From positions 898,180-962,179 of the forward strand of contig LIHN01000001.1 in assembly GCA_001314545.1 (NCBI GenBank): 64,000 bases of DNA, written 5' to 3'. Source of the DNA: Bacteroidetes bacterium HLUCCA01 (GTDB lineage Bacteria > Bacteroidota > Rhodothermia > Balneolales > HLUCCA01). Position numbers and translations under genes: made by a program. The notes beneath the pieces were generated by a model, which saw only the letters and a program-made list of their open reading frames with translations, was not told where the DNA came from and did no database searches. Positions 46,276-63,253 of the stretch are shown here, in pieces (the first letter of the stretch is position 1; each line of letters opens with the position of its first letter).

Positions 46276-47659
46276 GGTATGCAGCTGCAGCTTTGTCCGT
46301 TATTTCCAGGGCCTCATCGAATGCCTCCAGGAGGGTATCAATTTCGGATTTAGTCACGATAAGCGGAGGGGTTATCCATAGCCCGAATTTGTCTGATGGT
46401 ATATAAATGTTTTTTTTCTCTAACAGGAAAGAGGCCACTTCTCTGACCGGACTGTGGGCGTATTTTTGATTAAATTTTCGAACCGGTTGTTTGGTCTGGC
46501 GATCCAGTACGAGCTCCATGGTATACATCAGTCCGATGCCGCGCACCTCCCCCACGCTGCGATGTTTATCACGAAGCTTGAGCAGTCCGGCTTCAAGATA
46601 CTGCCCGGTCTTCCGGGTATGTTCCAGCAATTGCTCCTGTTCCAGAACCTGAATGGCAGCAAGTGCTGCAGCACAACCCAGGGCGTGACCCGAATAGCTT
46701 TGTCCGTGTCCGAAGGGCGTATGCCGGAAGGTATTCCAGATTTTTTGGGTCATTATGGTGGCAGCCAGCGGACAATACATCCCTAATGCCTTACCCATAA
46801 TGATGATATCCGGGATGACATCATAGTACTCAATTGCCAGAAAAGTACCGGTGCGACCCATACCTGTCATGGTTTCATCCACTATCATGACCAGATCGAA
46901 CTCATCACATAAATCGCGTATGGCATGCATGTAGGGTTTCGGAGCCGGGATGATGCCATTAGACCCCACAACCGGTTCAACCAAAATGGCTGCCACATAC
47001 TCCTTCCCTCCTTCCATTTCAATCATATGACGCATGTAGGCTGCAGCCTTGAGTCCATCCGGGTCGTCACCAAAAGGTGAGCGATAGGGGTATACATCCG
47101 GTCCAAACAGAACGCCGGGCTGTAGAAGAGGTTCGGCAAACCATCGACGCGGATCGCCGCTTGCTGAAAGTGCACCCGTGGTGGCACCATGCCAGGAACG
47201 GTAGCGGGACAAAATTTTATAGGGGTAGGGGTACGAAACCGGGTCGTAGGCGTCCCGGTTTTCATGAAACACTTGCCGGTATTTATAGAAACGGGCTGCT
47301 TTGATGGCTGCTTCCACACAGGCAGCGCCACTTTGCCCATACCACACTCGCTTATCCGGGCTGCCCGGGGATAAGGCACAAAGCTTTTGGGTCAGCTCTG
47401 CCGTGGCGTCAGTAGCAAAATCATCGGTTACATAGCTGCACTGCTGCATCTGACGATGCATAGCCTGTAATACATGGGGATGGTTAAATCCGATGTTGGC
47501 ACATTCATGGGCACTGCGCAAATCAAATATACGTCGACCGTCCCTGGTGTAGATGTAGCAACCCCGGGTGCGTTCAACCTCAACCGGATTCATGCCGGAC
47601 AGCGTGGACCAACTGGGTATCAGATGGTTGCGGTAGACTTCGGATGCTGATTCAGACAT
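46256..47659 (-). CDS. Class III PLP-dependent aminotransferase
   Basis: 467 residues, fold type I. Asp 261 (VMIVDETMTGMGRTG) and the PLP Lys 290 (IIIMGKALG) are present, with YGQSGAACVEAAIKAAR binding the phosphate and SYRSWHGATTGALSASGD the cofactor ring. The overall pattern (PYKILSRYRSWHGAT, HPFGHGQSYSGH-like segment) is close to taurine/hypotaurine-pyruvate and omega-amino-acid transaminases. In this setting it may accept AEP, N-methylated or hydroxylated relatives, or taurine, an isostere of AEP. It is the first gene of the minus-strand operon with the FAD enzyme and starts 340 bp from the divergent PhnX-like operon. Confidence 0.85.
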   Translation of the reverse strand: MSESASEVYRNHLIPSWSTLSGMNPVEVERTRGCYIYTRDGRRIFDLRSAHECANIGFNHPHVLQAMHRQMQQCSYVTDDFATDATAELTQKLCALSPGSPDKRVWYGQSGAACVEAAIKAARFYKYRQVFHENRDAYDPVSYPYPYKILSRYRSWHGATTGALSASGDPRRWFAEPLLQPGVLFGPDVYPYRSPFGDDPDGLKAAAYMRHMIEMEGGKEYVAAILVEPVVGSNGIIPAPKPYMHAIRDLCDEFDLVMIVDETMTGMGRTGTFLAIEYYDVIPDIIIMGKALGMYCPLAATIMTQKIWNTFRHTPFGHGQSYSGHALGCAAALAAIQVLEQEQLLEHTRKTGQYLEAGLLKLRDKHRSVGEVRGIGLMYTMELVLDRQTKQPVRKFNQKYAHSPVREVASFLLEKKNIYIPSDKFGLWITPPLIVTKSEIDTLLEAFDEALEITDKAAAAYHENHQD

Positions 47660-47999
47660 ATAACCGGGGGCTCAGAGATTGATAACAAAGTAAAAACAAC
47701 TACATCATATTCAGGTAACAACCCGCGCTTAGTTTGTTGGCCTGTGGATGGATGGGCTTGTGAATGCGCATCCGGACGAAATACCAATGTTTTACTATAT
47801 GTAAATAATACAAAAATCGCCAGGGCTCCAGTCCCTACGTACCTTCACCTTACTTATACGTAATATACTCATGCAAAAACAAGGCTTTATTACCATATTG
47901 TTAAGAGTTGCCCCATAGTGCCCGGCACGTTGCTTATACATTCTAAAGCACCTATTATTTACAAATATTCAATTACCTAACTCTTTAGACTCACTGTGC
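47660..47999. promoter_or_regulatory. Divergent control region of the two phosphonate operons
   Basis: 340 bp with no gene, AT-rich compared with the flanks, between the minus-strand aminotransferase/FAD operon and the plus-strand PhnX-like/PbfA operon. It must hold both promoters and probably the site of the XRE-cupin regulator. I found no perfect TAnnTTTG box or strong palindrome, so I do not mark individual elements. Confidence 0.6.
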
Positions 48000-48677
48000 A
48001 TGAAGCCAAAACTAGTTGTATTTGACATCGCGGGCACGACATTGAACGACCGTGAAGACACCGTGTCGTCCGCATTTTTACAAGCCATTCAGGAACAGGA
48101 ACTAACTATAGGCGACAATGATATCCGCTGGGTGATGGGGTACCGGAAAATCGAGGCCATTGAAATGTTGCTGGAAGCTGCCGGCATCGCCGTATCAAAA
48201 GAAAAAATTGAACAGATTCACAATCGATTTATTGAAATCCTGAATCAGCATTACCGGCAGGCCACCATCCGCGAATACGACGGGATTTCCGCACTTTTTT
48301 CCGAACTCAGGCAGGAAGGTATCCGTGTTGCGCTGGATACCGGCTTCAGTGCAGCAACCACGTCGGTCATCACGGACCGGCTTGGCTGGCTCAGGGACGG
48401 ACTGGTAGACGCGATTATCTCCAGTGACCAGGTTGGCCAGGGACGGCCTCATCCGGATATGATTCAGGCGCTCATGCAGCAGTTTCATATCCAAAACCCC
48501 ATCGATGTGGCCAAAGTGGGTGATACCCCATCGGATTTGCTTGAAGGCAAGAATTCCGGATGCGGGATGACTATTGGGGTTACCTACGGCACCCACACAC
48601 GTGAGGAACTGGAACAGCATCCTCATGATCACATTGTTTCCAGTGTAGATGAACTCAAATCCCTGCTGCTCAGATAA
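48000..48677 (+). CDS. PhnX-like HAD hydrolase (phosphonoacetaldehyde hydrolase-like)
   Basis: 225 residues. HAD motif I is VFDIAGTTLND: nucleophile Asp 9 with Ala at +2 and the AGTT sequence, a hallmark of phosphonatases rather than ordinary HAD phosphatases. The cap carries MGYRK with Lys 50 in the position of the Schiff-base Lys of PhnX, but the nearby His of PhnX is replaced (KIEAI). Motif III is GRPHPDM and motif IV VGDTPSDLLEGKNSGCG. The product is shorter than classical PhnX and matches the phosphonatase-like subgroup. It should split phosphonoacetaldehyde to acetaldehyde and phosphate. Its TAA overlaps the next gene's ATG (TAATG). Confidence 0.9.
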   Translation: MKPKLVVFDIAGTTLNDREDTVSSAFLQAIQEQELTIGDNDIRWVMGYRKIEAIEMLLEAAGIAVSKEKIEQIHNRFIEILNQHYRQATIREYDGISALFSELRQEGIRVALDTGFSAATTSVITDRLGWLRDGLVDAIISSDQVGQGRPHPDMIQALMQQFHIQNPIDVAKVGDTPSDLLEGKNSGCGMTIGVTYGTHTREELEQHPHDHIVSSVDELKSLLLR

Positions 48678-50017
48678 TGAAAGACGATAACAGGGTCAGC
48701 GAAGGGGACATCAACGACACCGATGCACGCAAAGCATGGTATCAGCAACTGTCGCAGCAAACGCGGATGGTACTTCAGCGAGACGCGGATGTATTTCTGA
48801 ATCAGACCCTGTCTTCACCTTGTCTGCAGGTACTCAAGGAAAGCAAAGGCACTACATTCACAGACATTGAGAATCGCGTCTGTCTGGATTTCCACGGCAA
48901 CTATGTACACAACGTCGGGTTTGGTCACCCCGAAGTCATTCAGGCCGTTACTGATCAAATGCAGTCGCTGAGTTTTTCAACACGGCGGTATACCAACCTG
49001 CCTGCCATCGAGCTCGCCGAGCGTCTGACCGGATACACCCACTCCCTGAAAAGAATTCTGTTTGCCCCCGGAGGCGCGGAAGCAGTCGGCATAGCCCTAA
49101 AAGCCGCCCGTTTACATACCGGAAGGCATAAAACCGTGTCGATGTGGGACTCCTTTCATGGAGCTACACTGGAAGCGGCTTCGGTTGGAGGAGAGGCTGT
49201 TTTCAGGCAGCATATCGGCCCCTTACTTCCGGGCACGGAGCACGTTCCGCCTCCAAATCCATCAGAGTGCCCGTTTAAATGTGGTACACATTGCTCACTG
49301 CAGTGTGCCGGCTATCTGGAATATGTACTGGAGAAAGAGGGCGACGTTGCCGCTGTTGTTGCCGAGACCGTGAGGAGCTCACCTTTTATCCCGCCACCGG
49401 AATATTGGAAACGGGTACGGGAAGCCTGCGACCGGAATGGCACCCTGCTCATTCTGGATGAAATTCCCCACGCTTTGGGTCGGACCGGCAGGATGTTCAC
49501 GTTTCAGAACTATGGTATTGAACCGGATATGGTGGTCATTGGAAAGGGTCTGGGTGGCGGTATTTTCCCGCTGGCTGCGGTACTGACCCGTGAAGAAATC
49601 AATGCATCGGTAAAGGGGAAGTCGATAGGCCATTACACCCATGAAAAAAATCCGGTAGCGGCAGCAGCAGCGCTGGCCATGCTCAACATCGTAGAAAAAG
49701 AAAACCTGTTGGAGCGGGTTGAGTACCTGCACCGCTATGCCATGACCCGAATGCGGAAAATGCAGCAGCGGCACCCCATCATTCACGACGTCCGGGGTTT
49801 GGGGCTGCTACTTGGCATTGAACTACGCGACCCGCAGACCGGTCAAAAATTACTCCGGGAAGCTGAAAAGGTTATGTATTACTGCCTTGCCAACGGTCTG
49901 AACTTTAAATTATCCATGGGCTGTATCCTGAATTTAATCCCGCCGCTGACGGTCAGCGAACAGGAGCTGGACACCGCATTTACCATCATTGAAGATGGTC
50001 TGGAGGCACTACCATGA
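48677..50017 (+). CDS. pbfA: (R)-1-Hydroxy-2-aminoethylphosphonate ammonia-lyase, PbfA-like
   Basis: 446 residues of the class III aminotransferase fold. It shows the features I associate with PbfA: SSPCLQVLKESKG..., LDFHGNYVHNVGFGHP, STRRYTNLPAIELAE, SMWDSFHGATLEAASVGGEAVFR and GPLLPGTEHVPPPNP. PLP ligands are Asp 261 and Lys 290 (VVIGKGLGGG). PbfA eliminates ammonia from 1-hydroxy-AEP to give phosphonoacetaldehyde, extending AEP catabolism to the hydroxylated form. Residues 198-210 hold four Cys spaced by three residues each, unusual for this fold. It is coupled by one-base overlap upstream and an ATGA overlap downstream, so hydrolase, lyase and DUF5690 protein are made together. Confidence 0.88.
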   Translation: MKDDNRVSEGDINDTDARKAWYQQLSQQTRMVLQRDADVFLNQTLSSPCLQVLKESKGTTFTDIENRVCLDFHGNYVHNVGFGHPEVIQAVTDQMQSLSFSTRRYTNLPAIELAERLTGYTHSLKRILFAPGGAEAVGIALKAARLHTGRHKTVSMWDSFHGATLEAASVGGEAVFRQHIGPLLPGTEHVPPPNPSECPFKCGTHCSLQCAGYLEYVLEKEGDVAAVVAETVRSSPFIPPPEYWKRVREACDRNGTLLILDEIPHALGRTGRMFTFQNYGIEPDMVVIGKGLGGGIFPLAAVLTREEINASVKGKSIGHYTHEKNPVAAAAALAMLNIVEKENLLERVEYLHRYAMTRMRKMQQRHPIIHDVRGLGLLLGIELRDPQTGQKLLREAEKVMYYCLANGLNFKLSMGCILNLIPPLTVSEQELDTAFTIIEDGLEALP

Positions 50018-51312
50018 CCCCGGTACAGCAATGGCTATCCAGGCAATCGGGCTGGGTTTTTTCACTATACGCCATAACCGCAGCCTTCAGCACCTACGCC
50101 TGTATGTATGCCTATCGACGTGCCTTCACGGCCGCGGGATTCGAGGGGTATGATATTTGGGGAATAGAACTGAAGACAGCTCTGATTGTCTCACAGGTTC
50201 TCGGCTACACCCTTTCAAAATTTCTCGGAATCAAAATTATCTCCGAAATGACGCCAAACCGTCGGGCGTGGAGTATTATCGGTTTCATACTATTCGCCCA
50301 TCTTGCTTTACTTCTTTTTTGGCTGGTACCTCAACCCTGGAATATCCCCTTTCTGTTTTTGAACGGGCTTCCCCTGGGCATGGTCTGGGGATTGGTATTC
50401 AGTTTTCTGGAGGGCCGTAAAACCACGGAGCTGCTCGGGGCCGGACTCAGCGTCAGCTTCATCGTATCATCAGGCTTTGTCAAATCGGTGGGGTCATGGA
50501 TCATGAATACCTGGCAGGTATCCGAATTTGCGATGCCATTTATAACCGGGATGGTATTTTTGCTGCCGCTCTTCTTTTTTGTGTGGATGCTCAATCAGAT
50601 TCCCCCTCCAACGCCGGAAGACGAGTTTATGCGCGTCAAACGCGTACCGATGTCGCGCACCGAGCGATGGCACTTTTTCCGGCAGTTTGCTCTGGGCATT
50701 ACCCTGATGACCCTGTGCTACATGTGTCTGACAGCGTACCGCGACCTGCGCGATAACTACGCGCTGGAGATCTTCGCGGCGATAGGGTTCGAGGGCGATT
50801 CAGCCATATTCACCCAGACCGAAGCCCCCATCGCGCTGGTTGTACTGATGGTTATGGCCTCACTCATGCTCATTAAAGGCAACCGGACGGCACTGGTGGT
50901 CAACCACTACATTATTGCCTTCGGGCTGGCCCTCATAGGCCTGGCCACACTGGGATTTCAGAGTGGTTTCATTACTCCCTACTGGTGGATGGTGCTCGTA
51001 GGGCTGGGTTCCTATCTGGGCTATGTACCCTTCAACTGCATCTTGTTCGACCGCTTCATTGCGACCTACCGGACCATGGCCAACGCCGGTTTTCTTATTT
51101 ATATAGCCGATTCCTTCGGATACCTGAGCAGTGTCGGGGTTTTGTTGTTCAAAAATTTCGGCAGGGCTGAAATCAGCTGGTTCGATTTTTTCACGAGTTT
51201 TTCCTACGTGACCTCCATACTCGGTCTTGTACTGACCTTCCTTTCCCTGCTGTACTTCATGAATAAACGGGACGTGGTTGTTATCAACCCGGAACGCCAG
51301 CCCGTCCCCTGA
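50014..51312 (+). CDS. DUF5690/MFS-like membrane protein, candidate phosphonate transporter
   Basis: 432 residues, about eleven to twelve membrane helices without a signal peptide (for example GWVFSLYAITAAFSTYACMYAYRRAFTAA as the first; ALVVLMVMASLMLIKGN near the centre). Charged loops such as YRDLRDNYALEIFAAIGF separate the halves. The arrangement is that of a major-facilitator-type protein; I believe it is the DUF5690 family. Its ATG overlaps the pbfA stop (ATGA), so it is translated with the catabolic enzymes. That position, and the lack of any ABC phosphonate transporter in the window, make it the best candidate for AEP/1-hydroxy-AEP uptake. The substrate is inferred only from context. 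Confidence 0.82.
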   Translation: MTPVQQWLSRQSGWVFSLYAITAAFSTYACMYAYRRAFTAAGFEGYDIWGIELKTALIVSQVLGYTLSKFLGIKIISEMTPNRRAWSIIGFILFAHLALLLFWLVPQPWNIPFLFLNGLPLGMVWGLVFSFLEGRKTTELLGAGLSVSFIVSSGFVKSVGSWIMNTWQVSEFAMPFITGMVFLLPLFFFVWMLNQIPPPTPEDEFMRVKRVPMSRTERWHFFRQFALGITLMTLCYMCLTAYRDLRDNYALEIFAAIGFEGDSAIFTQTEAPIALVVLMVMASLMLIKGNRTALVVNHYIIAFGLALIGLATLGFQSGFITPYWWMVLVGLGSYLGYVPFNCILFDRFIATYRTMANAGFLIYIADSFGYLSSVGVLLFKNFGRAEISWFDFFTSFSYVTSILGLVLTFLSLLYFMNKRDVVVINPERQPVP

Positions 51313-51340: not shown

Positions 51341-52981
51341 ATGAAAAAGCTTCTCCTCCCTGTATTCATCCTGATGGGTCTGGTTGGTTGCCAGCAGACC
51401 CGGCCACCAGCCGATCACGTTGTGATTATCGGCGTCGACGGCCTGAGTCCGGACGGTATTCGCATGGCCAATACACCAGCCATGGATGGTCTGATGCAGC
51501 GCGGAGCGTTTACCCTGCACGCCCGGGCTGTGATGCCCAGCAGCAGCGGGGCCAACTGGGGATCCATGATCATGGGTACCGGTCCGGAGCAGCATGGCGT
51601 AATATCCAATGACTGGCGGACCGACAACCTGGTACTGCCGCCAACCGTTGTGGGCGATGACAACCACTTTCCAACCATTTTTTCCGTACTGCGCGATCAA
51701 CGTCCAGACTGGCATCTGGCCGCTTTTCTGCACTGGAACCCCATTCAAAACTTCATCGAGGAGGGTGTAACCGATTACATGGCGCTGCCCCGCAGCGAAG
51801 AGGAGACCACCGATGAAGTACTCAGCTACTTTCAGGAGCACCAGCCTGAGTTTACCTTCATCCACCTGGATCATGTTGACGGAGCCGGCCACCGATACGG
51901 TCACGGAACTGCGCCCTACTACCGGTCTGTGGAAAAAGCAGACAGCCTTATCGGTGAGATCATTGAGGCTACGCGTCGGAACGGCATGTTCGAGCGAACC
52001 GTGTTCATACTTTCATCCGACCATGGCGGAATCGGCTACGGTCACGGCGGAAACAGCCTTGCCGAAATGGAGATCCCATTCCTGGTTTCCGGCAGCGGTA
52101 CCAAACCAGGACACGAGCTGCTGATGCCCGTAAATGTATACGACGTCCCCGCAACAGCACTGTTTGCCCTGGGTGTGGATCAGCCCTACGAATGGACCGC
52201 CCGACCAGCGAAAAATGCGTTCCAGGGTAATCCCGATCCGCAGCTTCGTTACCATTTTAACCGGTTTCAGCCAGCACCGGCAATTACCCCGGCAGGCGAG
52301 GGTGGTTTCAATCCGCCCGGCGGACTATTTATTGGGGAATCACCAACGGTTAGTATTCAAAACCCATCCGAATCAGGCATCATACGCTACACAACAGACG
52401 GTAGCCAACCTGTAAACACCTCAGACACCTACGCGGGACCGTTCAGCCTCAACGAAACCACTGTTGTAAAAGCCCGACTTTTTGAAAACGAAAGGCCGGT
52501 TTCTGACGAGATTACAGCCTATTTCAGAATTCCCGCTGACACAACCGGCAGGGGTCTCTACTACCATATTTTTGAGGCCGAGGGAATATCGCGATTACCT
52601 GATTTCAACCGGCTGCGTCCGGTAGCACAAGGGGTCACCATGGAAATCAGTTCGAATAACCTGATGCTCACCAGGCCCGACTATGTAGCCGCTGTTCTTG
52701 AAGGCTACATTGAGATTCCACAGGATGGGCGGTACACGTTTTCCCTGGCTTCCGATGATGGCAGCAAGCTATACATCAACCGCAGACTGGTCATAGACAA
52801 CGATGGCGACCATGGTGTCATAACGGTATCCAACAGTCTTTTACTGGGAGCGGGAAGGCACCCCATCCGGGTTGAGTGGTTCAACGGAGGCGGCGGGTAC
52901 TGGCTTGCTGCGTACATTGAAGGCAGCACCCTTCCCCGACAAATCATCTCACCTGAAATGCTGTACCGTCGGGCCAATTGA
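51341..52981 (+). CDS. NPP/alkaline-phosphatase-superfamily lipoprotein with PA14 domain
   Basis: 546 residues; lipobox LMGLVGC (Cys 17). The catalytic domain (about 25-295) has metal ligand Asp 33 (IIGVDGLSPDG) and a probable nucleophile Ser 69 in MPSSSGANWGSMIMGTGPEQHGV, where NPP enzymes usually have Thr. HLDHVDGAGHRYGHG and SSDHGGIGYGHGG supply the other zinc ligands. Residues of about 340-395 look like a chitobiase C-terminal beta sandwich (RYTTDGSQPVNTSD). Residues of about 405-540 form a PA14 domain (YIEIPQDGRYTFSLASDDGSKLYINRRLVID), which often binds sugars. It would hydrolyse phosphodiesters or pyrophosphates outside the cytoplasm. It starts 28 bp after the DUF5690 gene, so it may belong to the phosphonate operon. 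Confidence 0.9.
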   Translation: MKKLLLPVFILMGLVGCQQTRPPADHVVIIGVDGLSPDGIRMANTPAMDGLMQRGAFTLHARAVMPSSSGANWGSMIMGTGPEQHGVISNDWRTDNLVLPPTVVGDDNHFPTIFSVLRDQRPDWHLAAFLHWNPIQNFIEEGVTDYMALPRSEEETTDEVLSYFQEHQPEFTFIHLDHVDGAGHRYGHGTAPYYRSVEKADSLIGEIIEATRRNGMFERTVFILSSDHGGIGYGHGGNSLAEMEIPFLVSGSGTKPGHELLMPVNVYDVPATALFALGVDQPYEWTARPAKNAFQGNPDPQLRYHFNRFQPAPAITPAGEGGFNPPGGLFIGESPTVSIQNPSESGIIRYTTDGSQPVNTSDTYAGPFSLNETTVVKARLFENERPVSDEITAYFRIPADTTGRGLYYHIFEAEGISRLPDFNRLRPVAQGVTMEISSNNLMLTRPDYVAAVLEGYIEIPQDGRYTFSLASDDGSKLYINRRLVIDNDGDHGVITVSNSLLLGAGRHPIRVEWFNGGGGYWLAAYIEGSTLPRQIISPEMLYRRAN

Positions 52982-54816
52982 ATAAAAGTATATTCATTCT
53001 GCCGGCAGCACTCATCGCAATAATCCTGCTGGTAAGGCTGACAGACCTGATTCCCTCCCGGACAGAGGCACCGGTTGGAACGGCCGTTGCTTTTCTACCC
53101 GATGTACACTTTCATGATATATTCGCGGGTAACATGACCGGTAACCAACCCATGGTACCCGGGTTATTTCAGGATGACAACCTTACAACGCCCGTCTTCC
53201 TGCGGTCGATGCGTGCTCAAATCGGCTCTACCCGCCTGTTCAACGAAAATTACTTCGCATTTCGGGCTGCATTGGATGACATCGCCTCCCGGGGAATACC
53301 CTATGTAGTGCTGAATGGCGATTTCAGCGATGACGGTCAGCCGATTCACCTGGACGGACTGCAGCGTATTCTGGAAAGCTACGAACAACGGTATAGCATG
53401 CGGTTTTTCATGAGCTTCGGTAATCATGATCCCTATATGCCCTACACACAACCAGCTGGTAAGCGGGATTTCCTAATGGCCGATGGTCAGATTCAGGGGC
53501 TCTACAGTCCGGGGCATCCCATGTGCCCGGAGGATGCTGTACGTTGCACGGAAGGACTTCAGGAATTGGGTTACGAAGCGTTGTTTAATCGCCTATCAGA
53601 CTATGGCTTTGTACCTCGCGAAGGTGATATCCTCTTTGAAACGCCCTTTTCTGCACCCGAAAACCCTGACCCGAGTGATATCCATAATCGCAGCTATCCG
53701 ATCTGTACGGAAAACGGTTCGTGGTGTGGCACCTCCTTTGACACCAGTTATCTGATTGAACCCGAACCCGGTATCTGGCTGCTCTCACTGGATCTGAACA
53801 TTCATATTCCACGGGATAACCGCACCGACAACGACCCTGCCAATCCGGCAAACTACCTAAGCTCCGGCAATGCCGGTTTCAGTGCCCTGATTCAGTATAA
53901 ACCCTTTTTGCTGGACTGGTTAGGCCAGGTCAGCGAACGCGCAAAACGCGGGAAAAAGCAACTTTTTGTATTCAGCCATTACCCTGCCGGCGACTTTTAT
54001 CATAACAGCCGCGATGCCTTGGCCGGATTATTTGGTGAAAACGGCGCACAGCTGCGGCGCCTACCCTCAAGGGAGTCGCAACAGGCATTGGCAGAAACCG
54101 GCATTCCCTTTCATGTCGGGGGACATATGCACCTGAACAATACCCACATCATTGGCGATCGCGAGGGTGAACATAGTATCGGAATACAATCGCCCACGCT
54201 GGCAGCCTATGTTCCGGGTTATACCATAGTACGATATACCGATGAACAAACCATTACCGTAGAAACCATCGTTATTGAACAGGTTCCTCATTTTGACCAT
54301 CTATTCGATGTGTACCGGTCAGAATGGGCGGCACAGGACGAACCTGGCTGGGATCTCACCATCTTATCATCTCAAACCTACCGCGATTTTGCACGGCACC
54401 ATCTCGACCAGCTGGTTCGCCACCGGTTTATACCCAACGAGTGGCCGATGCCTTTGCAGACGCACTTACGCGAATCGAGCGTGCAACAGACCGCTGAGGC
54501 TGGCTCATTTTCACTTCCATTGAGCTGTGACCCAGCCCTTCCAATTGCCACGTTGCCCATCTACTTTTACCGTTACCGCAGCGCAGGGTCGCTGGCACAC
54601 CCCGATATTGACCCGGACGTCATGCAATGCCTGATGGACATACGGGCAACATTGACGGTAAGCCCTCTGCCTGGTTCCGATGACGAATTACTAAATAACC
54701 GGGCGGTACTTCAACGTCAGCTCCTGACAGGTCTGAATCTTCTGGAACGTTTTTCAAGGCCACTCCCCGATCAAAATTTCACAATAGACCTGAAAACCGG
54801 CAGCATCCGCGATTAA
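52978..54816 (+). CDS. Exported calcineurin-like metallophosphoesterase
   Basis: 612 residues from TTG 52978, which overlaps the stop of the NPP gene (TTGA); no other start is sensible. A single N-terminal membrane helix or signal anchor (SIFILPAALIAIILLVRL) puts the enzyme outside the cytoplasm. All five metallophosphoesterase blocks are present: LPDVHFHD, NGDFSDDG, FGNHDPYM, FSHYPAG and GGHMHLNNTH. A long insert after GNHD contains two Cys pairs (CPEDAVRCTEG and CTENGSWCG), probably disulfides. The last 180 residues have no known motif. Translational coupling with the NPP gene suggests that they act in sequence, for example diesterase then monoesterase. Confidence 0.92.
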   Translation: MNKSIFILPAALIAIILLVRLTDLIPSRTEAPVGTAVAFLPDVHFHDIFAGNMTGNQPMVPGLFQDDNLTTPVFLRSMRAQIGSTRLFNENYFAFRAALDDIASRGIPYVVLNGDFSDDGQPIHLDGLQRILESYEQRYSMRFFMSFGNHDPYMPYTQPAGKRDFLMADGQIQGLYSPGHPMCPEDAVRCTEGLQELGYEALFNRLSDYGFVPREGDILFETPFSAPENPDPSDIHNRSYPICTENGSWCGTSFDTSYLIEPEPGIWLLSLDLNIHIPRDNRTDNDPANPANYLSSGNAGFSALIQYKPFLLDWLGQVSERAKRGKKQLFVFSHYPAGDFYHNSRDALAGLFGENGAQLRRLPSRESQQALAETGIPFHVGGHMHLNNTHIIGDREGEHSIGIQSPTLAAYVPGYTIVRYTDEQTITVETIVIEQVPHFDHLFDVYRSEWAAQDEPGWDLTILSSQTYRDFARHHLDQLVRHRFIPNEWPMPLQTHLRESSVQQTAEAGSFSLPLSCDPALPIATLPIYFYRYRSAGSLAHPDIDPDVMQCLMDIRATLTVSPLPGSDDELLNNRAVLQRQLLTGLNLLERFSRPLPDQNFTIDLKTGSIRD

Positions 54817-54845
54817 ATCGGATGGCTGCCGGGCCCGGACAAAAA

Positions 54846-55787
54846 TCATCGCTGCGTCCATCCATAAGCAACGTAGTCGCGATCAAAGCTGCCATCTTCA
54901 TAAAGATTAATGATGGCATAACCCGGAGAAGTCTGATGGTAATCGCCTCCCCACCATCGACCCGAAACGGCTCCGTTGCAATAGTAGGTCACCTCGTTAT
55001 ACAGAACCGCATCAGCCAGGTGAATATGTCCGCTGACTGCCACCCTGACATTTTGGTGTTGATGAAACAGTTCTACAATCCGGCGGGCGTCAATATGCAC
55101 CCAGGCACCCGGTATCGTCCAGTTACCGGTTGTTTCATTGTCTCCATCAAAAAACGCAGCAGCACATACAATCGGAATGTGCGAGAAAACAAAAACCGGA
55201 CGTTCTGAGGGGATTTCCCGAAGGCGCTGCTGTAACCAGGAGAACTGTTCCTCATCCAGACGGGCGGTATACCAGGTTCCGTCTTCTTTCAGATGGGTAC
55301 TGTCAAGCACGATGAAATGCCATCCGTTTTGTTCATAATCGTAATACCGTGCGGGTATGCCAAGCTTTTCAACGGCCCACTGTTTGGCATAGCGCGGATC
55401 GTCCTTGGCTTCAGGGATGCCCCAGACGTCGTGGTTTCCAATGCAGTGGGTCACCGGAAGGGTGTAGGCTGCGGCCACCTCATCCCAAAGGTCCCACTGA
55501 GCCTGTACTTCCTGTTCATTTTTGCGAAGGGCGTCACTGATGGTGTCACCGCCGTTGAAAATAACATCCGGTTTGTCATCCAACGATTGCATGTGCTCGA
55601 TGCACGTGCGCGTCCAGTACGCAGAGTCATTGGAGGGATGTACGTGGGGGTCGGTCATATGCGCAATACGAAGTACTCTGCGCGATTGGGTCACCGGGTT
55701 GGCAGATCGGAACATGGTAAAGCTGCCGGCCGGGATTCCAACGGTTGCAAGGCCCATGGCTTTAAGCCACTCTTTTCGGTTCATCAT
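54846..55787 (-). CDS. Calcineurin-like phosphoesterase with Tat-like leader
   Basis: 313 residues. The leader MMNRKEWLKAMGLATVGIP resembles a twin-arginine signal (Arg-Lys instead of Arg-Arg, followed by a hydrophobic stretch), so export folded and with metal is possible. Catalytic blocks: HMTDPHVHP, NGGDTISD, IGNHDVWG, FSHIPI and SGHIHLAD. It matches the CpdA/Icc-like group in size and order. It is convergent with the gene at 52978 (29 bp apart) and lies 40 bp downstream of the PHP-domain gene on the same strand, so these two form one unit. Confidence 0.92.
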   Translation of the reverse strand: MMNRKEWLKAMGLATVGIPAGSFTMFRSANPVTQSRRVLRIAHMTDPHVHPSNDSAYWTRTCIEHMQSLDDKPDVIFNGGDTISDALRKNEQEVQAQWDLWDEVAAAYTLPVTHCIGNHDVWGIPEAKDDPRYAKQWAVEKLGIPARYYDYEQNGWHFIVLDSTHLKEDGTWYTARLDEEQFSWLQQRLREIPSERPVFVFSHIPIVCAAAFFDGDNETTGNWTIPGAWVHIDARRIVELFHQHQNVRVAVSGHIHLADAVLYNEVTYYCNGAVSGRWWGGDYHQTSPGYAIINLYEDGSFDRDYVAYGWTQR

Positions 55788-55827
55788 ATTGATACGGTGT
55801 GAGGTTGCGGTTTCCGGATTAGTGTAA

Positions 55828-57306
55828 TCATCTGAAATAAATCGGATTTGATATCAGTATAAGGCGGTCATCGTGGCGTACATTCGCGCGGATCCAGCCA
55901 CCATCTTCGGGCAAAACTATGGGAATACTTACCGGCGCATCGCTGCCGGCCGGAACGATGTTGGTATGGACGACCTCGCCGTTAACAATAATCTCCAGCG
56001 TCGTTTCATGGTCGGCAGCGATGTGTGTGGCCCATGAAAAAGGGACAAGAGCGGAGGCGGTTTCGCCCATTTCCACCCGCTGTTCATTTTGTACACCGAA
56101 AAAATCTGCGTCCGGCAGTTCGGGTCCGGTTGTCTTCACATACACGCTGCCGGAGCGTACACCTTCCAGCAGGGAAAATTCACTAAGATTACGGGCATAA
56201 ACCACTGTTGTGGGGGTTCCGGGCTGATCACTACCCTGTCCGGCTCCATGATCGTCGCTCCCGCCAATTGCCGTAATCCGATGCCCTTCGTTGAGTTGTT
56301 TGTGCCAAAATGGGATACCACTGATATCGGTTTCCACCTGCGTGCCGTTAACAATTTCAATCGCTTCAACCCTGCTGAAATCCGTTGCTTCGGCCGACCA
56401 TCCGCAACCTGTGCAGGAATCGCCGGTGGGTCTGCCGGGATGCACAATCGACAGTAACGCTCCGGCACGTGCCACACTATCCTGTAATGCCGGCATCCCA
56501 TAGCCCTCATAACCAAACCGGAAATCCATCGGAAGCCGGGTTCCGTGAACGGTTGCGTGACCGTAAAATGTGGTCACTTCCTGACTGGGCAGCAGCAACA
56601 TGTCCGGGTATTGTGGCTGCAGAACCCACATCTCGTGCTGGTGGCTGATGGTATTGTGATCGGCTATGGCTACAAAATCAAGTCCTCGCCGGTGGGCTGC
56701 CTGCGCAACCTGATACACCTGGCAGGGCGTACGTTGATTGAGGGTATTGCGGCACCCGAATCCATCGCTGTGTCCGGTATGCGTGTGAAAGTCGCCCTGA
56801 TACCAGCCTGCCTCGTCCGTCAATATCAGGGTGTCAGGACCGGTAAACAGTGGATGGGTCCGTGGTATGAGTTCAATAGTAATTTTATAGTTGACCGGCA
56901 GATTAATGACCGGGAAACCCAGAGAAACCTGCCAGGTTCCGGCCGGGAGCGGACCGGGGAGATACGAGGCAGTAGCCCGCGTTTCAGCAACCATGAACGA
57001 TGATTTGGAAAAACGGCTGGTTCCACGGAAACGGTGCGGATCGAACAGGCCGATTTCCACTTCGTTGCGATAACTGTTGTACTCAAATGCAATATTGAGT
57101 TGCCCAATCCCTTCAGGTACCTGAAACGATTCCAGTCGATAGGTATATCGGTCTGAAGGTTCGGCCTGGCCCTCAATGACCATGCGGGTGAGGGTATCGG
57201 ATTCAACCGGGCCATCGGAACCATAACCTGAGACAGGATACGGCACGTGGCCAAAGACCAAAACAGGCAGCAGGTTTACCAGGAGTAAAACAAAAATATA
57301 TTTCAT
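55828..57306 (-). CDS. Exported PHP-domain metallohydrolase (CehA/McbA type)
   Basis: 492 residues from ATG 57306 (ATG at 57315 possible), with signal MKYIFVLLLVNLLPVLVFG. An N-terminal beta-sandwich of about 140 residues comes first. The PHP domain begins YQGDFHTHTGHSDGFG, continues DFVAIADHNTISH, LLPSQEVTT and LLSIVHPGRP, and ends IGGSDDHGAG, which gives a full metal set. A C-terminal beta domain follows. CehA/McbA relatives hydrolyse esters and phosphoesters. The pair CTGCGW could be a disulfide. Its promoter region is shared divergently with the LamG-phosphoesterase at 57475, and the Tat-like phosphoesterase is encoded just downstream. Confidence 0.9.
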   Translation of the reverse strand: MKYIFVLLLVNLLPVLVFGHVPYPVSGYGSDGPVESDTLTRMVIEGQAEPSDRYTYRLESFQVPEGIGQLNIAFEYNSYRNEVEIGLFDPHRFRGTSRFSKSSFMVAETRATASYLPGPLPAGTWQVSLGFPVINLPVNYKITIELIPRTHPLFTGPDTLILTDEAGWYQGDFHTHTGHSDGFGCRNTLNQRTPCQVYQVAQAAHRRGLDFVAIADHNTISHQHEMWVLQPQYPDMLLLPSQEVTTFYGHATVHGTRLPMDFRFGYEGYGMPALQDSVARAGALLSIVHPGRPTGDSCTGCGWSAEATDFSRVEAIEIVNGTQVETDISGIPFWHKQLNEGHRITAIGGSDDHGAGQGSDQPGTPTTVVYARNLSEFSLLEGVRSGSVYVKTTGPELPDADFFGVQNEQRVEMGETASALVPFSWATHIAADHETTLEIIVNGEVVHTNIVPAGSDAPVSIPIVLPEDGGWIRANVRHDDRLILISNPIYFR

Positions 57307-57474
57307 GGTAGCCATAATACGCTTTTCAGCAGCTCTCCGAGGTTATCAAACTGTAACGAACAGGCCGATACTACACACACAAGGACATTTGCTAACAATA
57401 GGATAACCGCGCCTGGCACAACAGAATGGTACCTTGGGCGAACCACCTTTTACAAATAGTAAATTATTTCTGCT

Positions 57475-59316
57475 ATGATACGTTATCTGCTTTGTATCCT
57501 GACCTTGTTGCCATTCAGCGCCGAACTCAATGCACAGTCGCACTGGCACTGGGACTTTCATCCGGACCTGGTACGGGAGGAGTACTTATTGCCGGTGGCC
57601 GGCCATCCCGCTGCCGCAGCGCACATGCCTGAGTTTTCATTGGTTGCCGATTATTCGGTGGCCTTGTTTGACGGCAGAAATCATGCCCTGCTGATTTCCG
57701 ACCGAATTGACACACTGCAACTTCCTGCCCGCGACATGACTGTTGCCGGATGGGTTATGGTAGATTATCCGCAGTCGTGGGGAGGCTTTCTGTCGGTTAT
57801 GCAGGATAACGGCGACTACGAAAAGGGATGGGTTTTCGGCTATATGAATGACCGTTTCAGTTTCGGTCTGTCTACGGAGGGCGCCAATCAGGACGAAACC
57901 GGAACCATGACCTATCTGGAAAGTGCAACCCCCTTTGAATTTGGTCGATGGTACCATGTAGCCGCTACCTACAACGGGGAGGTGATGCGACTTTACGTAA
58001 ATGGGAACCGCTCCGCGGAAAGCCGGGCACAGACGGGTGCCATTTACTACCCGCAATCGACCTGGTTTGCACTCGGCGCCTATCGTGATGATGATGAAAA
58101 CAATCGCTTGTCGGGCGGAATGCATCGCATGCAACTCTGGGATCGGGAGCTGACCCCGGAAGAAATCATGGCAGATTATCGGTCGGGCCGTGATCTCAGC
58201 CTGGCCGAACCCACTCCGCGTATTGCCATGGATGAGCTGCTGATTTATCCGTATCTGAAAAATGTAACCGGCAGCCACGCCCAGGTCCGCTGGATGTCGC
58301 ACCGGCCATCATCCGGCATGGTTGAATATGGTGTTCATGGAGATTCACTGCACCACCGGGCAGTGAGCGAGGAGGAAGCCGACTTCCAGTTTGTGACCCT
58401 CCCGGAGCTGGAAGCCGGACAAACCTATTTTTACCGGGTTCACATCGACCTTAACGACGGTAGCCGGTGGTCCAGCGACCTGTTGACCTTTCAAACCATG
58501 GTTCCCGCCCGGCATGCTGTGAGTTTCAGTATTATTGGCGATACCCAGAACAACCCGGCCGTCTGGGGGACCATTTCCGAACATTTATGGGCAGAACGTC
58601 CCCAGTTTATAGTCCATGCCGGTGATATAGTCTCGCCCGGGAATGACATTTTTAAATGGATTTTCGAGTTTTTTGCGCCTGCCCGCAGTCTTCTGGAACG
58701 GGTGCCTGTATTTGGTGTGCTGGGCAACCATGAACGGAATGCCGGGGAGTATTACAAACTGACCGGGTATCCGGATCCGGGGTACTATTATGCATTTGAT
58801 GCCGGAGACATCCGTTTTTTTATGATAGATACCAATAAAGATGTAACTGCCGGCACGGAGCAGTACCTGTGGCTGGATGAGCAACTTGCTGCATCACCGG
58901 CCCGGTGGAATATCGTTGTACATCACCATCCCCCGTATTCCTCTGACGAGAATGACTACGGTGATACCTGGACGGGAACCTCAACGCGCGGTCATCTGCG
59001 ATTGCGCGACCTTGCCGGCCTGTATGAGCGTCATGGTGTTCCATTGGTAATCAGCGGACATATTCACACCTACGAACGAACCTGGCCTATCTACGAGGGT
59101 CGGGTTGATACCGACGGCGGGGTGACCTATGTCATTACCGGGGGCGCCGGTGGTCCGTTGGAGAACCCTTCCCCCACGCGCAGCTGGTTTTCCCGAAAAG
59201 TTTACCGTGGTCATCACTACAATATGGCTCACGTATTCGGAAATTCGCTGGAATGGATCACGTATGATATCAACGGCAACATCCTCGACCAATTCGAACT
59301 CCATCTGCCAGATTAA
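57475..59316 (+). CDS. Exported phosphoesterase with LamG and purple-acid-phosphatase-like domains
   Basis: 613 residues, signal MIRYLLCILTLLPFSAELNAQ. Residues of about 60-240 form a LamG/concanavalin-like sandwich (FGRWYHVAATYNGEVMRLYVNG is its hallmark). An FN3-like PAP N-terminal domain covers about 265-345 (QVRWMSHRPSSGMVEYG, AGQTYFYRV). The catalytic domain has SIIGDTQ, VHAGDIVSPG, GVLGNHERN, VVHHHPPY and SGHIHTYERTW, the last block typical of purple acid phosphatases. It should bind a glycan or polymer and release phosphate monoester groups outside the cell. The gene is divergent from the PHP gene and convergent with the next phosphoesterase gene. Confidence 0.93.
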   Translation: MIRYLLCILTLLPFSAELNAQSHWHWDFHPDLVREEYLLPVAGHPAAAAHMPEFSLVADYSVALFDGRNHALLISDRIDTLQLPARDMTVAGWVMVDYPQSWGGFLSVMQDNGDYEKGWVFGYMNDRFSFGLSTEGANQDETGTMTYLESATPFEFGRWYHVAATYNGEVMRLYVNGNRSAESRAQTGAIYYPQSTWFALGAYRDDDENNRLSGGMHRMQLWDRELTPEEIMADYRSGRDLSLAEPTPRIAMDELLIYPYLKNVTGSHAQVRWMSHRPSSGMVEYGVHGDSLHHRAVSEEEADFQFVTLPELEAGQTYFYRVHIDLNDGSRWSSDLLTFQTMVPARHAVSFSIIGDTQNNPAVWGTISEHLWAERPQFIVHAGDIVSPGNDIFKWIFEFFAPARSLLERVPVFGVLGNHERNAGEYYKLTGYPDPGYYYAFDAGDIRFFMIDTNKDVTAGTEQYLWLDEQLAASPARWNIVVHHHPPYSSDENDYGDTWTGTSTRGHLRLRDLAGLYERHGVPLVISGHIHTYERTWPIYEGRVDTDGGVTYVITGGAGGPLENPSPTRSWFSRKVYRGHHYNMAHVFGNSLEWITYDINGNILDQFELHLPD

Positions 59317-59354
59317 ACCGAACTTCTCAGAAAGTCGGTTTCAGGTTGTCCCTC

Positions 59355-61535
59355 CTAGCGGATCAGCAGCATGGAGCGCGAAACCATTCCCTGATCGCTA
59401 AGCAATCGATACACATAAAGACCGGAAGCCAGGCCATTTGCGTCAAAATTCACGGTGTGTACGCCGGCGGGTTTTTCACCGGACCAGAGTGTACCTACCT
59501 GTCTGCCGGCGGCGTTGAATACCTGTACGGTTACATGGCTGCGTTGGGGCAGCGCATACGTTATGGATGTAGAAGGGTTAAACGGGTTGGGCGTATTCTG
59601 GTAGAGTTGCAGTCCACGGGGCAGATCGGCATCACCACGGGGCAGGCTAGTGGTATTCTTCTCGATTGAAAACGAGTGCACCACATCCCCCTGTGGGTTG
59701 ACAGCCTCAAATCCCAGTCGGTTACCGCGTATCTGTACGACGCCAAAATGAAATACCGCATCAGAAAACGAGACATGGGCAAAATCGCGGCCGTAGGGGT
59801 CCAGATTTCCACCGCCACCCCCGGTGACCACATAACGTACGCCGTTAATTTCGCCATACTCATACGAATGGGTATGGCCGTTAAAGACCACATCCACCGC
59901 GTATTGCTCAAAAAGAGGCATCAGATCACGGCGGACGGTCATACTGCCTTCCCAGGCCGGCCAATACTCCGAGTACGGAGGGTGGTGAAAATACAGAACC
60001 GTCCAGCGCGACTGCTCCCTTTGTGGTGAACGCAGCGACTCAACCAGAAAGTTGTACTGATCACTGCCACGGTCGAAGGGAATATTGGTATCCAGATTGA
60101 TCAGGTACACATCGCCCCATTGATGCGCATAATACCTTCCGTCAGGATGATAGGTGCGGGGGGTAACGAAGTCGTTCAGAAAGGGCGCTGCATTATCGGT
60201 GTAGGTATCGTGGTTGCCGATGGCCAGAAAAAACGGCATTTGCTGGAGCAGCTCCTCGTAAATCTGGAAGTACACTTCATCGTAGGCGGCACCGTTGCCC
60301 TGGTGAACATCTCCCACATGGATGAGAAATTCGGGATGGTATGTGCCTGAGGCGCGCACCATCTGATCGCGCACCGCCCGCTGATTGTCGTTGCCGGTAC
60401 CGCTGTCGCCCAGCACAAAAAAGCTGTATTCGTTGCGCTGACCCGGTTCGGGAGCGGTTTTGAATGAGTACCCATCCGAGACCGGGATGTCTCCGGAGTA
60501 TACCCGGTAGTAATAGCGGGTATCGGGCTGCAAGCCGTCAACATGGATACGATGGAACTGACCGGACCCCTGCGTTGACAGCACCCGGCTGTAGCTATCT
60601 TTCTCCACTCCTATTTCAATGCGACCAACCACGGCATCCAGACTTTGCCAGGAAATCCAGGCATCTTCGGTACCGACCTGCTGCACGTACGGTTTTCGGT
60701 TATGTGTTACAGGGTACACGACACGACGGTCGGGTTCGCCATACAGGTAAATATTCCGTGTAACCAGCACATCGTCAAAGGATGCACCGGAATTGGCATA
60801 GGAAAGCAGTCCGATGCGACCGGCAGGGTACGTATCATCAATGGCCTGACCGATGAGTTCCCCGTTCATGTATGCTCGTATTGTATCCCCGCGCACATCC
60901 ACGCTCACACTGAAATATCCGGCCGGGTACGCTGCATCCACAATATTTTGATGTAGTGTCACGGGTTCACCATCAACAAAGCGTTGAATCCGTTGAATAG
61001 GGGAACGCGCCGAGGCCGAATTACCGGCATCGTTCATGAGCAGCACCCGGTAATAATTCCCGGGACTTTGGTACCGGACTATCAGCCCTATACCGTCATT
61101 GTCGGTGGAGCGAAGCACCGCATTGAGGGTGTAATCAGACCAGGTATCTTCGCCGGCGGTTATGTGTGTTCCGAGATGGTATATGAACTCCGCCGGTGGA
61201 TCGTACGACCAGATATTGGACAGCTGCCAGAGCTCCCCGTTACGCACTCGCCAGTCAGAGGGACCGGAACGAGGCTGGGGATCATCGGTAATCGTCCACC
61301 CGTTCAGATCCGATACGGAAAAGGTTTCCAGAAACAGGGTATCTGCCGATTGTGAGGGACTTAAACTGGCTTCCGGCCGGTCGTGCTGTGATTGTTCCGT
61401 TACTAAAGTACCGTCGTTACCCGGGGTACCGGACACAGGCGAGACAGAATGGGCGGCCGGCAGGACTGAGACGGCTGTAAGGAACCAACTCCCCGAAAAC
61501 AGCAGCACCCGAAGAAGAGGCGTACATCGATTCAT
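59355..61535 (-). CDS. Type IX-secreted purple-acid-phosphatase-like phosphoesterase
   Basis: 726 residues from ATG 61535; earlier in-frame codons would overlap the gene upstream. After the signal (LLRVLLFSGSWFLTAVSVLPAAHS) comes a jelly-roll of about 190 residues (LNGWTITDDPQPRSGPSDW... GLIVRYQSPGNYYRVLLMN), then a PAP-type FN3 domain (AWISWQSLDAVVGRIEIG, PDTRYYYRV). The catalytic domain follows: VLGDSGTGNDNQ, IHVGDVHQGN, AIGNHDTY, YFHHPPY, FNGHTHSYEYG. It ends in a sorting domain (NTPNPFNPSTSITYALP to SRSMLLIR). This is the clearest evidence that the phosphoesterase group works on the cell surface or beyond. Confidence 0.94.
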   Translation of the reverse strand: MNRCTPLLRVLLFSGSWFLTAVSVLPAAHSVSPVSGTPGNDGTLVTEQSQHDRPEASLSPSQSADTLFLETFSVSDLNGWTITDDPQPRSGPSDWRVRNGELWQLSNIWSYDPPAEFIYHLGTHITAGEDTWSDYTLNAVLRSTDNDGIGLIVRYQSPGNYYRVLLMNDAGNSASARSPIQRIQRFVDGEPVTLHQNIVDAAYPAGYFSVSVDVRGDTIRAYMNGELIGQAIDDTYPAGRIGLLSYANSGASFDDVLVTRNIYLYGEPDRRVVYPVTHNRKPYVQQVGTEDAWISWQSLDAVVGRIEIGVEKDSYSRVLSTQGSGQFHRIHVDGLQPDTRYYYRVYSGDIPVSDGYSFKTAPEPGQRNEYSFFVLGDSGTGNDNQRAVRDQMVRASGTYHPEFLIHVGDVHQGNGAAYDEVYFQIYEELLQQMPFFLAIGNHDTYTDNAAPFLNDFVTPRTYHPDGRYYAHQWGDVYLINLDTNIPFDRGSDQYNFLVESLRSPQREQSRWTVLYFHHPPYSEYWPAWEGSMTVRRDLMPLFEQYAVDVVFNGHTHSYEYGEINGVRYVVTGGGGGNLDPYGRDFAHVSFSDAVFHFGVVQIRGNRLGFEAVNPQGDVVHSFSIEKNTTSLPRGDADLPRGLQLYQNTPNPFNPSTSITYALPQRSHVTVQVFNAAGRQVGTLWSGEKPAGVHTVNFDANGLASGLYVYRLLSDQGMVSRSMLLIR

Positions 61536-61582
61536 AAAAAATAACTGTTTGAATGCAGTGAAAATTACAGACGCACCGGCTG

Positions 61583-63160
61583 TCACCAGATCGGATCCAA
61601 AACCGGCCAGGCCATACGATTGGAGTTTTGTTTGAAGACCTGCAGGGTCATGTTGGGATTGGCCCGGCTCTCACTCAAAGTCAGGGTATCCAGCATGGTT
61701 TCGTTGATATAGACCGGATAGCGGTCTTTGAGCGACGCAGCGGCATCGGTCAACGACCGGGCGAGGTAATCCCGGCGAAAACGACGGAGGCTTTCCTCCG
61801 ACCAGGTCTCGGGTGAGCCAGCTCTGATGCGGTCGGAATAGGGGCTTTGGATGCCGGTTACAAACTCTGTAACTACCTCCTGGTCAAATCGGAGGGTATC
61901 CAGCATACGGTCGCGTGTTTGATGATATACCCATTTATCCTGCCAACGCCGGATATCCCGTTGTACTTCCGCTCGTTCATGCAAATTTTCCCGGGCAGCC
62001 AGGTCGAGGAACACGTCATCGCGGACCACCAGGGCAACGATGTCAGAAAAACGCAAAGAAAAGTCCTGCATTGAACCGTCAGCCCGTAACGGATATCGGC
62101 CGGTATTGAAGGTCGAAAAGAACCGCTGCACACTCCAGTTTCCGCTTTCGGTGTAGATCAGCGTCTGGTCGGCAAGGGTACGGATGGCTTCAAGTTCGGG
62201 CTGGGATGCATCGGCCTGACGGATACGCTCCCACAAGGTACCTGAGGGCGTATCCTGTTTGTACAAATCGAAGAGGTGCGGTACGATGGCATTGAATACC
62301 TCCCGACTGGTCTCCACCTGCAGCGGCGACATACGGTCGTTCACAAACACCGCAGCCTGCTGCATCGCTTTGGTATTGTAGAGTACTTTTCGGGCAGAGA
62401 CCGACCGGTTGGCCCGGTCCAGCGGGGTTAATCGGGCTTGCACTATGTTGCTCACCATAAATACGAACCACTGATTGTTGTAAAAAACAGGATCGGATGG
62501 CGTGTTGATTTCGAGGTCTTGCAGATGTCCGAGTAATTCAGGATCCAGCTCAACGGCCGGCGTGCGGTCGTGAGTAAAAAACTCATCTACCTGATCTGGT
62601 GAAAGGTTGAAAACGTCACTGGCATATCGGGCAGCAACGGTTTCGAAGGGTTCATCCCGCAGTTCATCGCGTAACTGCAGCGCCTGCAGCCGACCCGGAG
62701 CCGGTAAAAACTTAAACTCGACCGAAACGGCCGACTTATTGACCTCGTGTTCAATTTCTTCGGGGGTGATTTCAATCTGGCTGAGAACAAAATGATTGAA
62801 TACTTCCTCAATAATGCGCTCTTCCCGCAGGGTCTGTACGGCTCGTTGTACCGCGGCCACGGTATCCAGCTGCAGCTCATACCCACGCCGGGCCAACAGC
62901 ACTTCGGTAATCATGTGGTTCAGGTAGGCTTCTCTGCGATGTTCGGCAGGCAAGAGATGAGGGTAGCCGAACTCGTAATTCAGCTGAAATTCCCGGGCAG
63001 TGATTACCTGATCGCCCACGCGGGCGAGTACCGGTTCATCCACGGGCTGCGGACCTGCCGGCGTACAGGACGTCAGCAGCCATCCGGCAGTCAGGAGTAC
63101 CACGTATCTCAAAATGACCCCTACAAAAGGCGCGTCATGCAGATTGTTTTTTGCAGTCAT
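61583..63160 (-). CDS. SurA/parvulin-like periplasmic lipoprotein
   Basis: 525 residues from ATG 63160 (63190 also possible). A hydrophobic leader ends in LLTSC. A SurA-N-like helical part covers about 35-150 (VLARVGDQVITAREFQLNYEF, then YLNHMITEVLLARRGYELQ, the standard chaperone start). A degenerate parvulin segment follows (KFLPAPGRLQALQLRDELRDEPFETVAARYASD). The rest is helical with RVLYNTKAM-like blocks and no clear second PPIase domain. The likely role is chaperoning outer-membrane proteins. It lies 47 bp upstream of the type IX phosphoesterase gene on the same strand, so it might assist that enzyme group, but general envelope work is equally likely. Confidence 0.82.
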   Translation of the reverse strand: MTAKNNLHDAPFVGVILRYVVLLTAGWLLTSCTPAGPQPVDEPVLARVGDQVITAREFQLNYEFGYPHLLPAEHRREAYLNHMITEVLLARRGYELQLDTVAAVQRAVQTLREERIIEEVFNHFVLSQIEITPEEIEHEVNKSAVSVEFKFLPAPGRLQALQLRDELRDEPFETVAARYASDVFNLSPDQVDEFFTHDRTPAVELDPELLGHLQDLEINTPSDPVFYNNQWFVFMVSNIVQARLTPLDRANRSVSARKVLYNTKAMQQAAVFVNDRMSPLQVETSREVFNAIVPHLFDLYKQDTPSGTLWERIRQADASQPELEAIRTLADQTLIYTESGNWSVQRFFSTFNTGRYPLRADGSMQDFSLRFSDIVALVVRDDVFLDLAARENLHERAEVQRDIRRWQDKWVYHQTRDRMLDTLRFDQEVVTEFVTGIQSPYSDRIRAGSPETWSEESLRRFRRDYLARSLTDAAASLKDRYPVYINETMLDTLTLSESRANPNMTLQVFKQNSNRMAWPVLDPIW

Positions 63161-63253
63161 ACGGTGTTCGAACGTTGGAGGGACTACCACAACGATGCAG
63201 CCATCCCGGGCACTGCGCCCATCGGTGGATATACCCTGAATTATGAAACAGAT

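Follow-up and report, generated by a model that had tools for sequence, protein, structure and literature searches.

Hydrolase and phosphonate-catabolic genes of the locus

The window analyzed here is a stretch of 64,000 nucleotides from Bacteroidetes bacterium HLUCCA01 (contig LIHN01000001.1, positions 898,180 to 962,179), in which genes for aminophosphonate catabolism are followed by six hydrolase genes (51341-61586). All six open reading frames that a first-pass annotation had reported in this region were recovered at or very near their assigned positions, and the metal-ligand motifs are intact in each of the six products.

The first gene (51341..52981, plus strand) encodes an exported lipoprotein (lipobox LVGC), designated NPP, which combines a type I phosphodiesterase domain (PF01663, 96 bits) with CHB_HEX_C and PA14 domains. 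Its catalytic domain and metal ligands resemble those of the NPP (ENPP) phosphodiesterases, and its PDB matches include bacterial NPP and ENPP1-7. The two-metal ligand set (D33, D177, D227-H228 and H235) is invariant. The protein differs from classical NPPs in its PA14 and CHB_HEX_C domains, in its phosphonate-linked context and, apparently, in the presence of a Ser-rich stretch (MPSSSGANW, with S69 invariant) where the classical enzymes carry the Thr nucleophile. The TTG start of the second gene overlaps the NPP stop codon; this gene (MPEa; 52978..54816, plus strand) encodes a calcineurin-like phosphoesterase (Pfam Metallophos). The structures that it resembles are Lmo2642 and the acid-sphingomyelinase-like SMPDL3A/B, but these matches are weak, and assignment to a subfamily was abandoned because the predicted model is too poor (pLDDT 52).

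The remaining hydrolases are (i) MPEtat (54846..55787, minus strand), a calcineurin-like phosphoesterase (Metallophos) with a Tat-like signal, (ii) PHP (55828..57315, minus strand), an exported metallohydrolase of the CehA/McbA type (NF038032, 249 bits against a cutoff of 80; no Pfam match), (iii) LamG-PAP (57475..59316, plus strand), an exported protein with laminin-G and purple-acid-phosphatase-type Metallophos domains, and (iv) PAP-T9SS (59355..61586, minus strand; ATG at 61535 is the likely start), in which a domain of the latter type precedes a type IX sorting tail. The sorting domain, already noted in the first-pass annotation, exceeds the TIGR04183 cutoff (31 bits, cutoff 23) and falls just under that of PF18962 (26.8 vs 27). 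The suggestion that all six proteins are phosphoesterases is upheld for five of them; PHP, as a member of the CehA/McbA type, may act on other bonds. Export, also proposed for the whole set, was judged by eye from the N-termini and is convincing for NPP, PHP, LamG-PAP and PAP-T9SS. The signals of the other two are weaker: the motif of MPEtat is imperfect, with RK in place of the RR found in relatives (L036, L048), and MPEa, unlike several of its orthologs, has a plain N-terminal hydrophobic helix with no lipobox.

The phosphonate-catabolic part of the window begins with PhnW, a 2-aminoethylphosphonate (AEP)-pyruvate transaminase (43223..44323, plus strand; NF010006, 564 bits, cutoff 296), and an XRE-type regulator with HTH_3 and Cupin_2 domains (HTH-cupin; 44475..45044, plus strand). 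Many Bacteroidota have this regulator in their phosphonate loci, and tblastn matches (E<=1e-20) were obtained in 54 of the retrieved loci. On the minus strand lie the genes of an HpnW-type FAD-dependent oxidoreductase (45148..46275; TIGR03364, 279 bits, just under the cutoff of 285) and of a class-III aminotransferase (AT; 46256..47659; PF00202). AT is not PbfA (252 bits, cutoff 525); another aminophosphonate may be its substrate. These are followed on the plus strand by a PhnX-like phosphonatase (48000..48677), which scores just below the TIGR03351 cutoff (203.5 vs 218.9 bits) and reaches 113 bits with the true-PhnX model TIGR01422 (cutoff 220), by PbfA (48677..50017; NF049939, 634 bits, cutoff 525) and by the MFS-fold transporter DUF5690 (50014..51312; PF18943, 553 bits). 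As PhnW and PbfA both exceed curated cutoffs, the genes of hydrolytic aminophosphonate catabolism are genuine here; the presence of PhnW implies AEP as a substrate and that of PbfA implies 1-hydroxy-AEP (OH-AEP).

The AlphaFold model of DUF5690 (pLDDT 90) has an MFS fold, and its best PDB matches are the glucose-6-phosphate transporters SLC37A4 and SLC37A2 (E=1.9e-8 and TM ~0.7 for SLC37A4, G6PT), with GlpT (1pw4) ranking 40th (E=3e-6). Because the closest solved folds are those of organophosphate:phosphate antiporters (SLC37/GlpT), with which identity is only ~15%, the model suggests that DUF5690 is an inner-membrane importer of organophosphates or organophosphonates.

The genes of PhnX, PbfA, DUF5690, NPP and MPEa form a single tight co-directional run, separated by overlaps or by the gap of exactly 28 bp between DUF5690 and NPP that had been described previously. 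The statement that the whole hydrolase array is joined to the phosphonate operon thus holds for NPP and MPEa, and not for the other four genes, as the hydrolases span four transcription blocks (plus, NPP and MPEa; minus, PHP and MPEtat; plus, LamG-PAP; minus, PAP-T9SS). The last block also contains, upstream of PAP-T9SS, a gene encoding a SurA/PpiC-like lipoprotein (61583..63190, minus strand), which was recognized by eye (no Pfam match).

A palindrome common to two divergent promoters

Comparison of the intergenic regions revealed that the palindrome TTTACNNNNNGTAAA is common to the divergent promoter of the phosphonate operon (TTTACTATATGTAAA, 47791..47805) and to the divergent promoter between PHP and LamG-PAP (TTTACAAATAGTAAA, 57449..57463). 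A third copy (57275..57289) falls within the beginning of PHP, so that the window has 3 copies compared to 0.03 expected. Only seven copies exist in the genome (3.37 Mb), and the four outside the window map to unrelated housekeeping genes, either inside them or at their ends. The two operator-like promoter sites together cover five hydrolases (NPP, MPEa, PHP, MPEtat and LamG-PAP). In the region upstream of phnW, motif comparison performed no better than shuffles.

Over the window and all other loci taken together, 20 of 27 perfect palindromes were placed just upstream of DUF5690, SusC, HTH-cupin or NPP genes or of the window's own genes, compared to 0-1 for each of five control palindromes at the same upstream positions; 17 of these 20 come from the loci of other genomes (DUF5690, SusC, HTH-cupin, NPP). 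A near-perfect palindrome precedes 40 of 82 DUF5690 genes (2-10 for controls), many of them from related Allomuricauda. As the regulator binding at TTTACNNNNNGTAAA we propose the HTH-cupin protein, the natural candidate, the alternative being that the palindrome is a promoter element and not an operator.

Conservation of the linkage in related genomes

The distribution of the locus was examined in 117 genomes of the order, with orthologs defined by at least 45% identity for NPP and at least 59% for MPEtat. DUF5690 was detected above cutoff in eight genomes, and NPP orthologs in seven, all of which are among these eight (in G329 the gene is split over two contigs). This co-occurrence has a p value of 1.6e-10 (hypergeometric, uncorrected for phylogeny). 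Since some NPP-family match was obtained in 108 of the 117 genomes, only this ortholog group, and not the family, tracks DUF5690. The other hydrolases are less strictly associated: DUF5690 is carried by 6 of the 8 genomes with MPEa, 6 of the 9 with PHP, 5 of the 9 with MPEtat and 2 of the 3 that contain both LamG-PAP and PAP-T9SS. Both NPP and DUF5690 are absent from two genomes of the same genus (G250, G252), which indicates that the cluster is accessory.

Far from being scattered and never linked to phosphonate genes, the hydrolases retain this linkage in relatives. NPP directly adjoins DUF5690 in three genomes: G292 (PbfA-DUF5690-NPP-MPEa), G329 (HTH, HpnW, AT, PhnX-PbfA-DUF5690-NPP) and G302, whose phosphonate locus comprises LamG-PAP, PhnX-PbfA-DUF5690-NPP and PAP-T9SS. 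In G329 a second contig starts within NPP and continues from its C-terminal portion into MPEa, and NPP-MPEa adjacency is therefore probable there too. AT adjoins NPP divergently in G119 and G289 (AT | NPP-MPEa) and in G309 (AT | NPP-PhnZ-like HD oxygenase-MPEa). The order and orientation of the window's distal hydrolases recur in G260 (L036:1-9149; MPEtat-PI-PLC-PHP-LamG-PAP-PAP-T9SS-SurA-like), with PI-PLC as an extra gene and the SurA-like gene again beside PAP-T9SS.

Beyond the order, with each species represented by one genome, 408 NPP-PA14 relatives were identified, of which the best 80 loci were examined. A phosphonate-catabolic gene was present within 10 kb of NPP in 64 of these 80, a proportion that describes close orthologs and not all 408, as the loci are the highest-scoring ones. 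Of the 80 loci, 56 contain PbfA, 55 DUF5690, 45 HpnW, 41 PhnX and ~50 SusC/SusD, and the hosts include Allomuricauda/Flagellimonas, Arenibacter, Leeuwenhoekiella, Roseivirga, Flavobacterium and Caulobacterales. Most often the genes are arranged as DUF5690-HpnW-PhnX-(HTH-cupin)-SusC-SusD-NPP-(MBL-fold protein)-PbfA-PAP-type phosphoesterase-type I phosphodiesterase; their families were confirmed in one locus each of Flagellimonas (L060) and Leeuwenhoekiella (L127). Many aquatic Bacteroidota carry closely similar combinations, with a common predicted control site.

Several variants were observed. In Flagellimonas (L060:11653-12924) a secreted MBL-fold protein is encoded between NPP and PbfA, and related loci have a gap of similar size. 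In a member of Melioribacteraceae (L076:1430-5305) a PAP-T9SS-like gene is divergent from the NPP-PA14 ortholog. Two Brevundimonas loci (L055, L056) carry NPP and a PhnZ-like HD oxygenase together with a TonB receptor, PI-PLC and DUF5690, the last two being adjacent; the Caulobacterales may, by this gene content, possess a version with an oxidative C-P cleavage enzyme. Among 14 control genomes, DUF5690 was detected in that of Caulobacter vibrioides alone, and so was PI-PLC (PF16670).

Proposed function of the locus and alternatives

On the basis of gene content and context, the window locus is best interpreted (with a probability of roughly two in three) as a phosphonate-dedicated ester-utilization locus, similar to a polysaccharide utilization locus, that would free AEP and OH-AEP outside the cytoplasm. 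The exported hydrolases, NPP-PA14 foremost, aided by the calcineurin-type phosphoesterases and PHP, would cut esters around AEP or OH-AEP in macromolecules, for example phosphonolipids or phosphonoglycans. The freed aminophosphonate would cross the outer membrane, in most relatives via SusCD, and DUF5690, as its predicted structure suggests, would carry it through the inner membrane. PhnW, HpnW and PbfA would then yield phosphonoacetaldehyde, from which PhnX would release phosphate, in keeping with the known pathway whose families are present. HTH-cupin would act at TTTACNNNNNGTAAA in the two divergent promoters, controlling the catabolic operon with NPP and MPEa from one and PHP with MPEtat, and LamG-PAP, from the other; PAP-T9SS is assigned to the locus by synteny. 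The coupling of hydrolases to a cytosolic AEP pathway, as envisaged in the first-pass annotation, is supported by linkage, co-occurrence and the common palindrome; that head groups are released from lipids or glycans at the surface is what we infer.

The catabolic genes match the hydrolytic PbfA/PbfD aminophosphonate pathway, which likewise comprises PhnW, a PhnX-like protein, PbfA and a TIGR03364-type FAD oxidase (PMC8154272, PMC10590968, PMC12366243); phosphodiesterase, TonB and DUF5690 do not appear in the text of these papers. The hydrolases recall the phosphate utilization system (PUS, PusCD) of Flavobacterium, in which, according to the text of its description, exported phosphodiesterases are induced by phosphate depletion (Lidbury et al. 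2021, PMC8115612). The features given there are SusCD-like complexes and exported phosphodiesterases, with PI-PLC-C1 and a calcineurin phosphodiesterase in PUSI, and some PUS loci contain phosphonate genes and inner-membrane organic-P transporters. The window similarly clusters exported hydrolases with a transporter and a regulator. However, PUS is defined by phosphate-starvation induction, and the window has no SusCD pair. DUF5690, PbfA and NPP-PA14 were not found in the text of the PUS description, a figure of which may show similar clusters. In the open-access literature DUF5690 is not mentioned, and no relevant prior description of SusD combined with AEP was found. The earlier assertion that no system of this composition has been described was therefore too strong: going by the PUS text, the general idea has been published, and it is this particular composition and regulon that were not found described in open-access text.

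A number of observations weigh against a locus dedicated to phosphonates. No SusC/SusD pair is encoded within the window, and no palindrome lies upstream of PAP-T9SS. G260 has the MPEtat-PHP-LamG-PAP block, but DUF5690 was not found in this genome (89% complete). MPEa or PHP occurs next to inositol genes or SusCD, without phosphonate genes, in G203 and G304, as do SusC-SusD-MPEtat-type I phosphodiesterase operons in G282 (L048), G284 (L044) and G296 (L045); these hydrolase families are thus not phosphonate-only. Nor is the NPP family exclusively phosphonate-linked, since 13 of the best 80 loci show no phosphonate genes (some are short contigs, others belong to Chitinophagaceae/Sphingobacteriales). 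Moreover, the loci are mutually related, so their counts are not independent. Such hydrolases without phosphonate genes would fit general phosphate scavenging, in which the enzymes strip phosphate from a range of esters (phospholipids and nucleotides among them) when phosphate is limiting, as the induction of PUS phosphodiesterases illustrates, and phosphonate genes are co-located for phosphorus nutrition with no phosphonate ester as a substrate. Purple-acid-phosphatase domains, which are usually phosphomonoesterases, point the same way. The close tracking of DUF5690 by the NPP ortholog, and the occurrence of the palindrome alongside a regulator confined to such loci, nevertheless render this explanation unlikely. 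That unrelated hydrolases merely gathered beside a phosphonate operon in an accessory island appears highly improbable: the four transcription blocks, the patchy distribution and the restriction of LamG-PAP and PAP-T9SS orthologs to three genomes would agree with it, but adjacency is kept across families and classes, and for NPP and MPEa this adjacency, the co-occurrence and the common palindrome led to its rejection.

A narrower version of the proposed phosphonate-ester function, overlapping with it, concerns inositol lipids or glycans (phosphoinositides, GPI anchors, inositolphosphoceramides), with the aminophosphonate arm used when these are AEP-decorated. PI-PLC is present in 15 of the 117 genomes, among them all those with NPP, MPEa or PHP, and IolD in seven of the eight with MPEa. 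In G304 (L032:337-20000, L033:1-15000), MPEa, PHP, GDPD, PI-PLC and SusCD lie beside IolC/D/E/G in what looks like an inositol-phospholipid utilization locus; PI-PLC also adjoins DUF5690 in Brevundimonas, as noted above. In the lipophosphonoglycan of Acanthamoeba, inositol accounts for 8% and AEP plus 1-OH-AEP for 10% (PMC3964302), a composition that fits PhnW and PbfA, although the match is circumstantial. Taken together, these data hint at glycoinositol-(phosphono)lipids as a substrate and make glycoinositol-phosphonolipids a testable candidate. The corresponding machinery would digest glycoinositol-(phosphono)lipids of protists or invertebrates. Its PI-PLC, NPP-PA14 and acid-sphingomyelinase-like/PAP hydrolases would take apart a glycan that is anchored by inositol and decorated with AEP/OH-AEP, and the aminophosphonate so released (in some relatives also inositol) would feed cytosolic catabolism within a single HTH-cupin regulon. 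Such specialization is considered doubtful, since no PI-PLC was detected in Flagellimonas-type loci, and the window genome (G000) has its PI-PLC on another contig among unrelated neighbors and no IolD above cutoff, for which reason inositol catabolism was rejected as a necessary part there.

AEP in nature is largely part of lipids and glycans. The published accounts of phosphonate catabolism examined here begin with the free acid and not with esterified AEP. The initial steps absent from these accounts would be provided by a conserved locus in which exported phosphodiesterases and the candidate transporter DUF5690 are combined with PbfA and a predicted regulon; such a locus would also point to a role for DUF5690. 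What becomes of phosphonolipids and phosphonoglycans could then be tested directly in cultured strains, e.g. Leeuwenhoekiella blandensis MED217 and Flagellimonas species.

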